This document shows, in pieces, positions 3,543 to 9,699 of a stretch of 64,000 bases of DNA (position 1 is its first letter; each line of letters begins with the position of its first letter). The translations under genes and the position numbers were made by a program. Source of the DNA: Stackebrandtia nassauensis DSM 44728 (GTDB lineage: Bacteria > Actinomycetota > Actinomycetes > Mycobacteriales > Micromonosporaceae); assembly GCF_000024545.1 (NCBI RefSeq), contig NC_013947.1, forward strand, positions 5,456,001 through 5,520,000, read 5' to 3'. The notes under the pieces were generated by a model. The model was given only the letters and a program-made list of their open reading frames with translations. It had not been told where the DNA came from and searched no databases.

Positions 3543-4445
3543 GTGAAGGTTCGCAAGGAATTCGATGAGGCCACGGCCGCGCACCGTGCGGCGGCCGGGC
3601 ACCTGGAGCGGGCCCGCGCCCTGCTTCCCAAGCACGGCAAAGCACCGGTGACCGACCGGCAGCGCGCGCTGGTGACCCGGTTGGCCCAGGCGGCGTTGGC
3701 CGCGACGCCCGGTTGGCTGGGGCATCGGCTGACCGGTGCCATGCCCGGGGTGCCGTTGGGTGAGGCCGACGCGGCGCAGCCGTTGTCGGTGCGGGTCGGC
3801 GAGTGCCGTCTCGACGACGACCACCGGTTCCCCGCCGTGGTCAACCTGCTCGGTACCGGGCATCTGGCCGTGGACGCCGACGCCACCGATCCCCGGGCGA
3901 TGTCGCTGCTGCGGTCGGTGCCGCTGCGGCTGTTGGCCGCCCGGCCGTCGGAGACCCTCAACGTCTCGTTCGTGGACTGCTGTCTGGACGGCGAGGTGTT
4001 CGCGCCGTTCGGGCCGCTGGTCGAGGCGGGGCTGGCTCCGGAGGTCGCCACCGGCGAGATCGGGCTGGCCGGGGTACTCGACACCGCCGAGGCGCACCTG
4101 GACCACGCCCGCCGACGCGGGGGCGCCGCCGCCGACCTGCCGGAACGGCTGGTCGTGATCGCGGGGCTGCCGCCGGAACCGGGCGCGGTGACGGCGCGGC
4201 TGGCGAACCTGATCGCGTCCGGCCCCGAGGCGCGACTGCACCTGGTCCTCGCCGACGCGCGCGTCCGGCCGAACCGCTCGGGCACCCGCACCACGCATGT
4301 CAGCCTGTCCGGCGACCGCGCCACCGTCGCGGGGATTCCGCTGCCGGTGCGCGTCGACGCCGAACCCGAGCCTGAACTCATCACCGAACTGTGCGGCAGG
4401 CTCGCCGCCAACCGGCAGTGGGTCATTGAGGACGATCTGACGTGA
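3543..4445 (+). CDS. FtsK/SpoIIIE-like domain protein without a P-loop
   Basis: First gene of a four-gene operon. GTG 3543 is preceded by GGAGAGG (3527-3533). The 300-residue protein starts with a helical region, and residues 85-260 then follow the secondary-structure order of an FtsK/SpoIIIE motor domain. This is a strand ending FPAVVNLLGTGHLAV where Walker A should be, LLRSVPLRLLAARPSETLNVSFVD, a helix with LDHARRR, and LPERLVVIAGLPP where Walker B should be. The Walker A lysine and Thr/Ser are absent (LLGTGHLA) and no acidic Walker B residue is evident, so it is unlikely to hydrolyse ATP. As I recall, similar inactive domains occur at the start of very large actinobacterial FtsK-like proteins; here the domain stands alone. 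The assignment is by pattern, not by search. Confidence 0.5.
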   Translation: MKVRKEFDEATAAHRAAAGHLERARALLPKHGKAPVTDRQRALVTRLAQAALAATPGWLGHRLTGAMPGVPLGEADAAQPLSVRVGECRLDDDHRFPAVVNLLGTGHLAVDADATDPRAMSLLRSVPLRLLAARPSETLNVSFVDCCLDGEVFAPFGPLVEAGLAPEVATGEIGLAGVLDTAEAHLDHARRRGGAAADLPERLVVIAGLPPEPGAVTARLANLIASGPEARLHLVLADARVRPNRSGTRTTHVSLSGDRATVAGIPLPVRVDAEPEPELITELCGRLAANRQWVIEDDLT

Positions 4446-5068
4446 GCACCATCGACTACGAGCGGCTGCTGACCGAGCTGACCGAGGCCCGCGCCGAGAC
4501 GGCCGGGACGGTGGACACCGCCTGGAAGGAGACCGCCGATCGCATCGAGCGGCTGGAGGACCGGCTGCTGGTGCAGCAGGCGGAGTTGCTGAAGCTGGCG
4601 ACGACCCTGCACTTCAAGGCGCCGCCGCTGCGTCCCACGCCCGAGGACATCGGCACCGCCCGCGAGCCTGAGTCCGCGTGCCGCTCCTGCGAACGCGAGG
4701 CCGACTCCGCCGACGCGGCGGCGCAGCGGGCGCTGTCGCTGGCGCGGATGCCGTCCTTCCTGCCGAACCAGCGGCCCCTGGTGCGGCACCTGACGATCTA
4801 CCTGCTGTGCGCGCTGGGCGCGGTGGCGGTGGAGTGCCTGGCGGTGGCCTCGCAGGGGTTCGTGAAGGCGTCGTGGATCTTCGCCGCCGCGCCGCTGGCG
4901 GCCTTCGCGGTCGGGTACGTCGTCATCGGCAGCGTCGGACGGCCCCGGGTGCTGCCGGAGTCCAAGCGGGCCCGGCGCGCGCTGCTGCCCACCCGCGATC
5001 CGAAGCCCGGGCTCATGCTGTGCCTGATCGCCAGCGTGGTGACAGCGGCGGCGTTCCTCCTGTCTTAA
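4442..5068 (+). CDS. Coiled-coil membrane protein with a CxxC pair, function unknown
   Basis: GTG 4442 overlaps the previous stop by four bases (GTGA), so translation is probably coupled. The 208-residue product has a charged helical N-terminus (residues 5-55, likely coiled coil: ADRIERLEDRLLVQQAELLKL), then a C80-x-x-C83 pair in an acidic stretch. Three hydrophobic segments follow (about 119-137, 147-165 and 190-207). The topology suggests a membrane anchor with a cytoplasmic coiled coil that could hold the partner proteins of the operon. I recognise no family. Confidence 0.75.
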   Translation: MSTIDYERLLTELTEARAETAGTVDTAWKETADRIERLEDRLLVQQAELLKLATTLHFKAPPLRPTPEDIGTAREPESACRSCEREADSADAAAQRALSLARMPSFLPNQRPLVRHLTIYLLCALGAVAVECLAVASQGFVKASWIFAAAPLAAFAVGYVVIGSVGRPRVLPESKRARRALLPTRDPKPGLMLCLIASVVTAAAFLLS

Positions 5069-5118
5069 CCTCTGCGCATACACTTGCGCCGTTCGGCGGC
5101 GGAAAGAGGTGGACGACG

Positions 5119-7692
5119 ATGAGAGCTTCCGGGCCGCGTAGCGCCCGCGCCAAGCGGCGTTCCCAGTCCCGTCATCACGTGGCCGAGCACGCGCCCAGGC
5201 CGGACGGCTGGCCCGACGGCGAGCTCCTCGCCGAGACCCTCGACCTCAACCCGCTGGCCCGCACCCTCCTGGAGGAGATGAAGCCGGAGGTGATGCGGAC
5301 GATCCTGCAGCGTCTGGACGTGCAGGTTCGCAAGGCGATGCTGGAGCCGCACAACATCCCGGTCACGAAGGTGAGCCTGCGGGCGGCCAGCCAGGTGCTG
5401 ACGCTGCTGCGAGCCGAGGACAAGCCCGCCGAGTCGATGCTGCTGGGCGGGTTGCTGGCACCGGCGGCCGACCTGTTCAACGACGCGACCGTCGGGCGGA
5501 CGCAGTGGACCGGGCTGCGGTTGAAGCTGGTGGACCTGGCGCTGCCGCTGATCGTCAACAGCGAGTCGACGTTTCGGGGACTGCGGACCTGGCACCGCTG
5601 GTGCGAGGACTCCTTTGAGGACATCACCCTGGTGGCGGTGATCGGGCAGCACTGTTCGCACGCCGGACTGGCCGCCGCCTATCTGGCGCACAGCTATCCC
5701 GAGATCAAGCAGCGGTACGAGAGCCTGCGGGCCCAGTACCCGCGACTGCCGGAGGTCTTCGACTCCCGGCTCACCTCCTCCAACCCGCTGAGCCGGTACC
5801 TGGCGGCGCGTCCGGACCGCAAACTGCCCAACACCGCCGCCGAACTGCGGATGCTGCTGCGCGAGGACAACCGGGTCCGGCAGGCCGAGATCGAGCAGAT
5901 GCGGCGGCAGCGCGCCAAGGCCGCCGCGGAGCGGGAACGGCTGGTGCGGCAGCGCGAGGACGCGCTGACCCGCCACGTCGAGGTGACCGAGGAGCCGCGC
6001 CCCACGGTGGCCCGGCCCGATCCATTGACCACCCCCAGTGATCCGGGCCTGGCGGCGCTGCCGAGTGTCGCCGAGTGGGCGGCGGCCGTCACCGACAGCC
6101 GAGCGCTGACGCAGCGGATCATCAACGGCGAACCCCCGAGCATCACCGAGCTGCGCTCCATCGTCGACCTGAGTCTGCGGTTGCGCAACATGGCCACCGT
6201 CGCGGCCCGGGTACTGGGCGAGGAGGTCAAACCCAACCGCAGCGACATCGACCGGGCCCTGACGGTGATCCTGTCGGATGCGGAACTGTCGGCGAAGCTG
6301 GGGACGGTGCCGCAGACCGTCGCGGACGTGACGGCGGCGCTGGAACGGCTGGAGCCGGTGCCGGGTGAGCGGGCCGAGGCGCCGCGCACCGGGTCGGTCC
6401 CGGCTGAGGCGCCGGAAACGGCCAGCCCGTCGGCGGAGCTGGCGGCGGCGAGGTCGGCCGCCGCGACCGGGCGCCCCGAGACCGTCGTGACGACCGAACC
6501 GGACAAGGCCGCCTCCGACCCGTCCGATCTGTCCGATCTGGACTCGATTCTGCACGGCGAGGCCGGTGCCCGGCTGGTCGCGCTGGCCGGGACGGCCAAG
6601 CACGCGCCCGTCCGGGAGTCGTCGGCCTCGCGCGCCGAGGACGACGAACCCGACCCGACGGACGACGAGGACGACGAACAGCCCGCGATCCCATCGCGGC
6701 AAGCCGGAACCGCCACGGCGGCAACGGTTTCCGCCGAAGCGCCGCCCGAGGACCCCGAGGCCGCCGAACTGGAACATCGGCTGGTCACCGCCGCCAGCTG
6801 GGCCCGGCACCCCGGCGGCGCGATGAGCGAGGACTACGCCGCCACCCTGTCCCGTTTGGACGTCGCCGCGCACCTCGACCCCGATCCGCGTCGCCGTCTG
6901 GTCGTGGCCGCCAGCGCGCTGCCCATGGCGCTGCTCGACCCCGCCAGCGGCGCGACCAAGCTGCTGGACATCGAGGTCCCCGAGTTGGCCGACTGGCCGC
7001 ACCTGGTGTCGCTGCGCCGCCTCATCGGCGAGTTCACCCGCAACGGCGGTTCGCTGTACGCCCCGGACCTGCAGTTGCAGGCACTGCTGTCGTACCGGTT
7101 GTCGAAGATCCGCTACCGCGCCCGGCAGATCCGCGAGACCGCCGGAACCCGCACCCTCAAGTACGACAAGGCGACCAAGGTCTACCGCGCCTGGTTCACA
7201 CCCGGCGGCCGGTTGCGTCCGCTGCTGGACTGCCTGGAGAGCACCGAGTTCAGCAAACTCCAGGTGCTCGTGGACGACGCGGCGAAGGTCGGGGCGGTGC
7301 GCTCCATCAACGAGACGCTGTCGGAACTGTTCGACAAGGGCAAGCCCCGCATCGTGGCCGGGGCCCGGCAGAGCCTGGTCGACTCCTACGACGAGGTGGT
7401 CAACCTCGGCACCAGCACGCTGGCCGTCCACCGCACCATCGTCGACCGCGCCAACGCCCAGCACGACGCCCACCGCCGGTTCCAGCGCGCCACCGACTTC
7501 GGCGACCAGGTCGAGAAGCTGCGCGAGGGCGTCAGCGCGGAACTGGAGGGCCCGCACCCGCCGCCGCGTGCGGTGTGGCTGCTGGTGAACCGGGCGCTGG
7601 GTTTCCAGCACCACATCCACCCGCTGACCGGCCCGGAACCGTCGATCGAGTGGGTGCTCGACCACGCCGACTCACCGGACGACGCGGCATGA
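5119..7692 (+). CDS. Large helical protein of unknown function, operon partner
   Basis: The start is ATG 5119 with an AAAGAGGTGG ribosome site, 50 bases after the previous gene. The 857-residue product begins with a basic tail. An ordered helical domain follows (about residues 35-245) with repeated leucine-rich helices. A strongly charged helix (around residues 248-290, RQAEIEQMRRQRAKAAAERE) leads to an acidic, Pro/Glu/Ala-rich, probably disordered region (about 295-545, broken by a helical stretch near 315-420). A second helical domain fills the C-terminal 300 residues. There is no P-loop, nuclease, zinc or membrane motif. It could be a scaffold or substrate-recognition subunit for the nuclease encoded next, whose start codon overlaps this stop. 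No function can be assigned. Confidence 0.75.
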   Translation: MRASGPRSARAKRRSQSRHHVAEHAPRPDGWPDGELLAETLDLNPLARTLLEEMKPEVMRTILQRLDVQVRKAMLEPHNIPVTKVSLRAASQVLTLLRAEDKPAESMLLGGLLAPAADLFNDATVGRTQWTGLRLKLVDLALPLIVNSESTFRGLRTWHRWCEDSFEDITLVAVIGQHCSHAGLAAAYLAHSYPEIKQRYESLRAQYPRLPEVFDSRLTSSNPLSRYLAARPDRKLPNTAAELRMLLREDNRVRQAEIEQMRRQRAKAAAERERLVRQREDALTRHVEVTEEPRPTVARPDPLTTPSDPGLAALPSVAEWAAAVTDSRALTQRIINGEPPSITELRSIVDLSLRLRNMATVAARVLGEEVKPNRSDIDRALTVILSDAELSAKLGTVPQTVADVTAALERLEPVPGERAEAPRTGSVPAEAPETASPSAELAAARSAAATGRPETVVTTEPDKAASDPSDLSDLDSILHGEAGARLVALAGTAKHAPVRESSASRAEDDEPDPTDDEDDEQPAIPSRQAGTATAATVSAEAPPEDPEAAELEHRLVTAASWARHPGGAMSEDYAATLSRLDVAAHLDPDPRRRLVVAASALPMALLDPASGATKLLDIEVPELADWPHLVSLRRLIGEFTRNGGSLYAPDLQLQALLSYRLSKIRYRARQIRETAGTRTLKYDKATKVYRAWFTPGGRLRPLLDCLESTEFSKLQVLVDDAAKVGAVRSINETLSELFDKGKPRIVAGARQSLVDSYDEVVNLGTSTLAVHRTIVDRANAQHDAHRRFQRATDFGDQVEKLREGVSAELEGPHPPPRAVWLLVNRALGFQHHIHPLTGPEPSIEWVLDHADSPDDAA

Positions 7693-9635
7693 ACGAGGCC
7701 GACGACCTGGGACTGCCCGCCGGGGTGCGGCTGGTTCTGGCCGCCACCGCCAGGATCGCGACGGCCAGAATGGACGATGAGGTCGATCCGGCGCGGCTCG
7801 CGGCCAGCATCGACGGTGCCCGCAGTCTGTTGCCGCTGCTGAGCGGTTCGGCGGGACTGCGGCGGCTGCTGCGCGACCAGCTGGGCGGCGGGCGGGAACC
7901 GTTGGCCGCCGAACTGCTGTCGCCCGACGCCGAGGTGTCCGAGCGGGCCTGCGCGGCGGTGGGCAAGCTGCTGGACGCGGCCCGGCGGGCGAACCGCCGC
8001 GCGCTGCGGGCACAGCGCCGGGCGGCGAGGCCCGACGCCGACACCAAACGCACCGCGCGACTGGAGCAGCGCATCACCCAGCTGCGGGCGGTGCGGGACC
8101 GGCTCGACGGCCAGGTGTCCACACTGTCGGCCGAGAACGCCGAACTACGGTCCACCATCGACAATCTGGACGGCGAACTCGAACAGCTGCGGCGGCACCT
8201 CGACGTGGCCTACGCCCGGATGGACCGGGTCCAGACCGAACGCGACGAGGCGCTGCGGCAGGCCGAGCGCGCCGCGCCGCGGGTCAGCGTGGGCGCCGAC
8301 CTGTCGGTGTCGGTGCGGGTGCTGGGCGGCGGCACCGAGATCGGCGGTTCCTGCGTGCTGATCACCGGCGGCGGCACCCGGCTGCTCGTCGACGCCGGAA
8401 CCCGTCCCTCCGGTGTGGACGAGGACTCGCTGGCCCCCGCCGACATCGCCGAGGTGTACGCCGAACCCCCGGACGCCATTGTGGTCACCCATGCGCACAA
8501 CGACCACGCGGGCTGGGTTCCGGCGCTGGTCAACCGGTTCCCGAACCTGCCGGTGTTCGCCTCCACGGCCACCTGCGACCTGCTGGGCACCATGTGGGCG
8601 GACTCGGCGAAGGTGCTGGCGTTCAAGGCCGACACCGACGAGTCCTGGGCGGGCGGACCGCTGCCGCCCTACAAGCAGTCCGACGTGGACGCGGCGGTGG
8701 CGGCGCTGATCGACGTGCCGGTGGGGCATCCGCGCCGGGTCGGGGCGCTGTCCTTCGAGCTGTTCGACGCTGGGCACATCATCGGCGCCACCGGCGTGGT
8801 CGTGACCGCCGGGGACCAGCGCGTCGTCGTGTCGGGCGACGTGTCCGGTCCGGGCCAGCTGAGCGTCGGTGGCCTGCACCTGCCGGACGCAGGCGTAGGC
8901 GCCGACCTGCTGCTACTGGAATCGACCTACGCCGGGGCCGGGAAACTGCCGCCCCGCGAGGCGGTCATCGACCAGTTCGTCTCCGATGTGGACCGGATCC
9001 TGGGTGCCGGTGGCCGGGTGCTGGTGCCCGCGTTCGCGCTCGGCCGGGCCCAGGAGATCGCGCTGATCTGCGGCCGTCACCTGCCCGACGCCGAGGTCCT
9101 GGTCGACGGTATGGCCCGCGACCTCAGCCACGCGTACCGCCGCCACGACGGCCCGGACGGCGAACGCGTGCAGGTGTTCTCGGGCCGGGTCCGCCCGGTG
9201 GAGCCGGGCCGCACCCGCCGCGAGATCGCCGACAAACGGCCCTGCGTCGTGGTGGCCACTTCGGGGATGCTCTCCGGCGGCCCCGCCGTCGGTTGGGCCC
9301 GCGAGATCCTCACCGAACCCGAGTCGGGCCTGATGGTGGTCGGTTACCAGGACGCCGACAGTCCGGGCTCCCGGCTGCTGGGTCTGGCCGCCGCCGGTGG
9401 CGGCCGGTTCGACCTGCCCGGCATGAACGAACCGATCGAGGTCTCGGCCCACATCGGCAACTACCGGCTGGGGGCGCACGCCTCCGAGGACGATCTGGTC
9501 AAGATCGCCGCCGAGGCCCGGCCGCAGACCCTGATGCTGGTGCACGGCCGTCTGGCGGCCCAGCGCCGCTTCGCCGACCGGCTGCGACTGCGGCAGCAGA
9601 AGGTCATCCTCGCCGACCGCCCCTGGTCGTCCTGA
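7689..9635 (+). CDS. Beta-CASP metallo-beta-lactamase nuclease with coiled-coil N-terminus
   Basis: ATG 7689 overlaps the previous stop (ATGA). Residues 1-120 are helical, and 118-200 form a likely coiled coil (RLEQRITQLRAVRDRLDGQV and onward). Residues 210-648 are a complete beta-CASP metallo-nuclease of the CPSF73/RNase J type. It has HAHNDH (H268, H270, D272, H273), GHIIGATG (H363), SGDVSG (D384), ESTYAG, FALGRAQEI, ATSGMLSGGPAV, the dimerisation-type AHIGNYRLGAH and the terminal LVHG histidine. All metal ligands are present, so an active RNase or RNA 3'-processing enzyme is expected. The N-terminal coiled coil is not a usual part of these enzymes and probably docks it to the operon's other products. 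This is the only catalytic protein in the operon. Confidence 0.85.
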   Translation: MNEADDLGLPAGVRLVLAATARIATARMDDEVDPARLAASIDGARSLLPLLSGSAGLRRLLRDQLGGGREPLAAELLSPDAEVSERACAAVGKLLDAARRANRRALRAQRRAARPDADTKRTARLEQRITQLRAVRDRLDGQVSTLSAENAELRSTIDNLDGELEQLRRHLDVAYARMDRVQTERDEALRQAERAAPRVSVGADLSVSVRVLGGGTEIGGSCVLITGGGTRLLVDAGTRPSGVDEDSLAPADIAEVYAEPPDAIVVTHAHNDHAGWVPALVNRFPNLPVFASTATCDLLGTMWADSAKVLAFKADTDESWAGGPLPPYKQSDVDAAVAALIDVPVGHPRRVGALSFELFDAGHIIGATGVVVTAGDQRVVVSGDVSGPGQLSVGGLHLPDAGVGADLLLLESTYAGAGKLPPREAVIDQFVSDVDRILGAGGRVLVPAFALGRAQEIALICGRHLPDAEVLVDGMARDLSHAYRRHDGPDGERVQVFSGRVRPVEPGRTRREIADKRPCVVVATSGMLSGGPAVGWAREILTEPESGLMVVGYQDADSPGSRLLGLAAAGGGRFDLPGMNEPIEVSAHIGNYRLGAHASEDDLVKIAAEARPQTLMLVHGRLAAQRRFADRLRLRQQKVILADRPWSS

Positions 9636-9661: not shown

Positions 9662-9699
9662 GTGGGGTGGACCGGTTTGCCCGAACCGGTCCACCCCAC
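9662..9699. terminator. Terminator between convergent genes
   Basis: A 17-bp stem (9662-9678 with 9683-9699, one G-U pair) with a four-base loop lies between the nuclease operon and the convergent htrA-like gene. It probably serves both. Confidence 0.9.

Follow-up and report, generated by a model that had tools for sequence, protein, structure and literature searches.

A four-gene Stackebrandtia operon with an intact beta-CASP nuclease and without the ATPase parts of its relatives

The single-contig 6.84-Mb genome of Stackebrandtia nassauensis DSM 44728 was analyzed in a window of 64,000 nucleotides (NC_013947.1, positions 5,456,001 to 5,520,000; coordinates below count from the first nucleotide of this window). 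It contains a row of four plus-strand genes, here called A, B, C and D, for which we favor a reading that we give an even chance: the operon would be an offshoot, inherited vertically and devoid of an ATPase, of a defence-like pair of STAND-type ATPase and beta-CASP nuclease, and would work as an RNase assembly that A-B anchors to the membrane. Gene A (3543-4445) encodes a stand-alone Walker-less domain of predicted FtsK fold with 300 amino acids and gene B (4442-5068) a protein of 208 amino acids with some three hydrophobic stretches and, as judged by eye, an N-terminal coiled coil. Gene C (5119-7692) codes for a helical protein of 857 amino acids in which the ATPase part is absent, and gene D (7689-9635) for a nuclease of 648 amino acids composed of metallo-beta-lactamase (MBL), beta-CASP and RMMBL domains with all catalytic residues present. 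A and B are joined by a start/stop overlap of four nucleotides (GTGA, 4442-4445), C and D by a second one of the same length (ATGA, 7689-7692), and both overlaps are found in 5/5 species. The 50 nucleotides between B and C (5069-5118) form the sole loose joint of the operon. The four genes keep their order and strand in each of the five Stackebrandtia genomes examined, with identities to the window proteins of 45-52% (A), 36-40% (B), 44-45% (C) and 58-67% (D) in the other species. An earlier note on this DNA had described a four-gene unit with an FtsK-like protein lacking Walker residues, a membrane protein and a beta-CASP nuclease with intact metal ligands, and these elements of the description hold.

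D passed the Pfam cut-offs for all three nuclease domains, with 62.8 bits for PF00753 (MBL, cut-off 22.7), 46.1 bits for PF10996 (Beta-Casp, 27.7) and 29.3 bits for PF07521 (RMMBL, 21.6). The nuclease part covers residues 207-640 approximately and is preceded by an N-terminal region in which roughly residues 100-200 form a coiled coil. Ten catalytic positions (D235, H268, H270, D272, H273, H363, D384, E411, H597 and H619) are invariant in 10/10 alignment rows. A histidine at motif C is the mark of RNA-type beta-CASP enzymes. In a strict pattern scan for seven motifs over 21 rows of the D clade, motif 2, the SGD-type motif, motif B and motif C were present in all 21; the misses concern the first Asp pattern (two rows), the motif-3 His pattern (two rows) and ESTY (three rows). 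Among solved structures D is most similar to RNase TTHA0252 (E 5e-36), followed by archaeal CPSF/FttA, CPSF73, Cas14 and INTS11. Assignment of D as an equivalog was rejected both for aCPSF1/FttA (TIGR03675, 183.6 bits at a cut-off of 580.2) and for Type VII CRISPR Cas14 (NF045584, 163.6 bits at a cut-off of 800). PADLOC matches of D to Lamassu LmuB, DruG and Jet lie on the coiled-coil stretch and were discarded as composition, and one weak match, to RTasMBL (E 0.08), is located in the MBL domain. Each Stackebrandtia genome contains one more weak D match (E 1e-4 to 4e-6), probably RNase J, judging from the position of the match and the length of the frame.

The D clade was assembled from a contig scan (best 80 matches), a search of the family and a search with a C profile. 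According to the family search it is present in 5/5 Stackebrandtia genomes compared to 9 of 245 other genomes of the family. Outside the genus 18 loci were read (L033, L034, L067-L071, L085-L089 and L186-L191, with L189 and L190 being syntenic in one genus). At 16 of these, D lies directly 3' of a gene for a long, STAND-type C protein, and each of the 16 pairs shows ATGA or GTGA at the stop of C. C was not found at the remaining two loci, L033 and L089, and the long C protein of L072 has no D within the stretch fetched.

A plain search with C gave matches in Stackebrandtia alone (5/41 genomes). The profile search of 296 genomes revealed six further genomes, with all matches inside open frames of 2,024-2,442 amino acids. 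The homology of C is to the N-terminal portion of these ATPase proteins of 2,000-2,400 amino acids, which share the N-terminal and middle regions of C unevenly, several aligning only from about profile position 300 onward. Walker A (GGR[QG]LGKS) and Walker B motifs occur in 17/17 long C proteins examined; from these motifs we take the proteins to be STAND-type, while Pfam, applied to two of them, gave a weak AAA_22 match in one only. No Walker A motif was found in the window C. The ATPase part of the L188 protein (996 amino acids), found in its own genome as a control, was detected in 0/5 Stackebrandtia genomes. By these homologies C-D is best described as the front end of a pair in which a STAND-type ATPase protein directly precedes a beta-CASP nuclease. 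PADLOC models match neither C nor two of its long relatives. The predicted model of C is confident only at an all-helical region (34-230) and the long helix behind it, and a fold search with the whole model gave no match under an E-value of 0.001.

Some further features of C and its relatives were observed. In Candidatus Stackebrandtia faecavium (G002, L011:2007-3443) C comprises just 478 amino acids; the second helical domain is gone and the overlap with D is kept. The disordered linker of C contains, near residues 470-490 of P0003, a motif D-L-S-D-L-D-x-x-L ... G-A/K-G-x-x-L that is common to the Stackebrandtia C proteins and three STAND-type C proteins and is a possible docking site. At L072 (21-13989) a protein of 1770 amino acids with DinG-like and DpdF-like helicase parts, a protein of 812 amino acids without Pfam or PADLOC match and the STAND-type C follow in a row, possibly a separate defence operon.

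DISARM-type genes, that is DrmA with DrmB and/or a DrmE-like gene, occur at four of the 18 D-clade loci. The gene sets are C-STAND, D, DrmE-like, DrmA and DrmB at L085, DrmE-like, C-STAND, D, DrmA and DrmB at L191, and D, DrmE-like, DrmA and DrmB at L089; at L033 D, DrmE-like and DrmA are followed by a DrmB-like frame recognized by eye. PADLOC E-values range from 9e-116 to 2e-87 for the four DrmA proteins and from 3e-47 to 1e-22 for three DrmB proteins. Of the DrmE-like proteins, two match Pfam DrmE_C (L085 and, below the cut-off, L033), and the other two, at L089 and L191, were assigned by similarity to these. L089 and L033 are close sisters, both with a methylase-like gene convergent with DrmB (by eye). 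Two of these DISARM-type loci with a beta-CASP nuclease (L085, L191, L089 and L033, with L194 and L197) hold a STAND-type C as well. No DISARM-type genes were found in the stretches read at the other 14 D-clade loci. As a control, 0/71 other beta-CASP loci from the best 80 scan matches, which stem from many phyla and are in part short, matched these DISARM proteins. A pattern scan for a phospholipase D (PLD) nuclease (DrmC) near the four loci, a weak test, detected none. We propose tentatively, with somewhat less than an even chance, an undescribed actinobacterial defence system in which C-STAND, an ATPase with a helical sensor, is translationally coupled to a beta-CASP RNase that would also supply the nuclease that a DISARM variant lacks. 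Domestication of this system in Stackebrandtia would have proceeded by deletion of the STAND ATPase and of the partner's FtsK motor, leaving a membrane-anchored core RNase.

For A, the predicted model exhibits the FtsK/EccC fold, pointing to an inactive FtsK domain. Neither a Walker A motif nor the FtsK_SpoIIIE Pfam domain was found in A; both are present in the paralogue L073. In the paralogues the region homologous to A continues into the FtsK_SpoIIIE motor domain, which is absent from A. Each of the five Stackebrandtia genomes encodes at least two full-length FtsK-like paralogues, and the A genes of the operon are the only A-type open frames below 800 amino acids in these genomes (305-455 vs 803-963). 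B, with hydrophobic stretches at about 112-141, 139-167 and 187-208, is the partner of A-type proteins, and homologous A-B pairs with an FtsK motor are found elsewhere as well as within the same Stackebrandtia genomes. As far as can be judged from sequence, A-B derives from an actinobacterial pair of FtsK-like ATPase and membrane protein, of which it is a copy without the motor domain. Searches of Pfam, NCBIfam, PADLOC and PHROGs yielded no usable match to A, B or C, and a PDB sequence search gave no match for A and none credible for C. Profiles of A and B gave no match in 19 C or D loci outside the genus. A dual ancestry of the operon is fairly well supported. The independent scattering of homologues, named beforehand as evidence against a four-gene system, is found in part, since A-B and C-D occur apart outside the genus and all four genes together in 5/5 genomes within it. 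As a side observation, an FtsK-like ATPase gene is followed at L077, L080 and L081, directly or past a membrane protein gene, by a gene for a helical-looking protein of 87 amino acids, perhaps a conserved actinobacterial module.

Downstream of the operon, HtrA-type and histidine-kinase genes are found in 4/4 relatives within the genus. On the 5' side three relatives have genes for a repeat protein and for an acetyltransferase-like protein (the second judged by eye), and the contig of the fourth begins too close to judge. The same gene order and the same flanking genes indicate that the operon is inherited vertically at a fixed chromosomal place. In the window, the repeat protein (2241-2813) consists of D-x-D-x-D-G repeats resembling calcium-binding repeats by eye and has the same place in three relatives. 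A small membrane protein at 83-745 has a C-terminal half that looks by eye like an Mrr-type restriction-endonuclease fold and gave no PADLOC or NCBIfam match at the cut-offs used. D and the HtrA-type gene are convergent and separated by a hairpin of 16-17 base pairs (9662-9699), whose stability is well above that of shuffled sequences (z -7.2) and which has a T-run on the minus strand only. A pairing of D with this protease, as the published trypsin-MBL module (PMC12799240) would suggest, was rejected; D does not belong to the ComEC-like type, and the protease gene is convergent and stands beside the genes of a two-component system. PADLOC gave three weak matches among the nine neighbour genes, to the protease (E 3e-11), the kinase (1e-9) and the regulator (5e-6), judged to be generic protease, kinase and receiver domains, and no dedicated defence gene among the nine. 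With genes for an HtrA-type protease, a two-component pair and 2-oxoglutarate decarboxylase (kgd) among its neighbours, the operon does not lie in a defence island.

These data bear on the proposal that the operon is a defence module. We regard it as rather unlikely that it still works as an anti-phage system in Stackebrandtia, in which A-B or C would sense infection and free D to cleave RNA of the phage or the host. A defence link of C-D is favored by the relatives, with the STAND-type ATPase at 16/18 loci and DISARM genes at 4/18 compared to 0/71 controls, and other conflict systems with predicted-inactive FtsK domains are reported (PMC7159879). The window operon itself, however, has a fixed place in the genus among housekeeping neighbours, no dedicated defence gene beside it and no ATPase. 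The DrmA model found 0/5 Stackebrandtia genomes and the DrmB model only G002, hence not the window genome; neither matched among the nine neighbours. Since DrmA is missing from all five genomes and DrmB from that of the window, DISARM acting in trans is unlikely.

The origin of C-D was investigated with trees. The D tree was rooted with other beta-CASP proteins; L116 was omitted as short, and L088 and L089 entered with rows trimmed manually to the nuclease part. For C three versions of the tree were made, of which the first, mixing full and partial rows, was not relied on. In the D tree the five Stackebrandtia genes form one group (100/100) that adjoins L188 (98/95; 99/97 after addition of two rows). 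Together with six STAND-associated D genes they constitute a group of eleven members (100/99), and ten other STAND-associated D genes lie outside. ATPase loss in Stackebrandtia would be the simplest history.

Several points weigh against the offshoot reading. On the D data a sister position of Stackebrandtia to all six others escapes clear rejection (approximately unbiased (AU) test, p 0.077; 0.053 with two more rows), and on the C data a sister position of Stackebrandtia C to L188 is rejected (AU p 0.007). The six-member L188-type C clade is monophyletic without Stackebrandtia C (100/98), which stands on a long branch and groups with that clade at an unsupported 33/52. Because the C tree disagrees with the D tree, ATPase loss rather than gain elsewhere rests on the rooted D tree. 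DISARM genes occur at a minority of D loci (4/18), two of them close sisters. The contact between A-B and C-D, the cutting of RNA by D and the membrane location are all steps that we infer, and the variable gap between B and C (50, 75, 131, 192 or 234 nucleotides across the five species) could leave room for a second promoter.

According to the preferred reading of an ATPase-less RNase assembly, the operon would have been joined from two older pairs, A-B and C-D, each without its ATPase and with the nuclease intact. A would have kept just the Walker-less N-terminal FtsK-fold domain of a former ATPase, and D would cut RNA, its putative substrate, as a zinc-dependent enzyme of the TTHA0252/CPSF73 type. 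The scaffold C would hold D by the coiled-coil N-terminal region of the latter and dock on A, which B would fix to the membrane; A might also assemble into rings together with full-length FtsK-like paralogues. As the operon encodes no ATPase, control of D would lie with docking or with FtsK-like motors in trans and not with a STAND switch. A membrane-tethered RNA machine, also suggested in the earlier note, fits the parts list, with its RNA-type beta-CASP enzyme and the hydrophobic stretches of B.

Unlikely in our estimation is a housekeeping complex of the genus for RNA processing or decay, a bacterial analogue of the CPSF73/FttA machines with the defence-like relatives as a side branch. It would agree with the RNA-type beta-CASP and RMMBL domains of D, with its strongest similarities and with vertical inheritance, but the D clade is patchy outside the genus (9/245), its genes are elsewhere paired with a STAND-type ATPase, and the probable RNase J would already provide RNA decay with another beta-CASP enzyme. 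That A-B and C-D are two adjacent operons without shared function, together by chance since the genus ancestor, is distinctly improbable: the pairs do occur apart outside the genus and the gap between them varies in length, but strand and order are the same in 5/5 species, and the only short A-type frames of the five genomes stand in the same setting as a C without ATPase.

If true, the offshoot reading would make it possible to trace how a defence-like pair of ATPase and nuclease became a fixed core function through deletion of its ATPase, and it names a candidate actinobacterial defence pair of STAND-type ATPase and beta-CASP RNase. An RNA-type enzyme within DISARM, a DNA-acting system, would be unexpected. 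We know of no described system of the composition A-B-C-D. A literature search, with most subscription papers outside its scope, yielded no paper on this operon, on DISARM with a beta-CASP nuclease or on a STAND/beta-CASP pair.

Compared to known systems, A shares its modeled fold with the EccC/FtsK ATPases and differs from them in lacking Walker A and a second, active motor domain. D resembles RNase TTHA0252, archaeal aCPSF1-FttA and CPSF73 in its MBL, beta-CASP and RMMBL domains and in all catalytic motifs. The N-terminal region of aCPSF1 contains KH domains; D differs from aCPSF1-FttA by its N-terminal coiled-coil region and by a TIGR03675 score far under the cut-off. An MBL-fold nuclease paired with defence genes is also known from the trypsin-MBL proenzyme module of Hachiman, AVAST, Lamassu and DRT; that nuclease, encoded upstream of a fused trypsin-like protease, is ComEC-like, protease-activated and cut DNA, not RNA, in the reported test (PMC12799240). 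D, in contrast, is a beta-CASP enzyme, and the HtrA-type gene is convergent with it, with the hairpin in between, and not paired with it. With DISARM the D clade shares the loci at which its genes sit with DrmA plus DrmB and/or a DrmE-like gene. The published DISARM nuclease, as given in PMC12458937 and PMC9142583, is the PLD protein DrmC and not a beta-CASP enzyme. The former surveys DISARM-related helicases (2025) and names nucleases of the PLD, PD-(D/E)xK and other types; no word in its main text begins with 'lactamase' or 'CASP'. In the latter, a structure paper, the nuclease step of DISARM is described as unclear. If the reading is true, D-type enzymes would be candidate nucleases for some DISARM loci. 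Unlike the AVAST-type pairs of STAND ATPase and nuclease, C-D has a separate nuclease of the beta-CASP type, PADLOC models do not match C, and the window operon is without an ATPase; the relatives of C likewise carry a STAND-type ATPase directly 5' of the nuclease gene.

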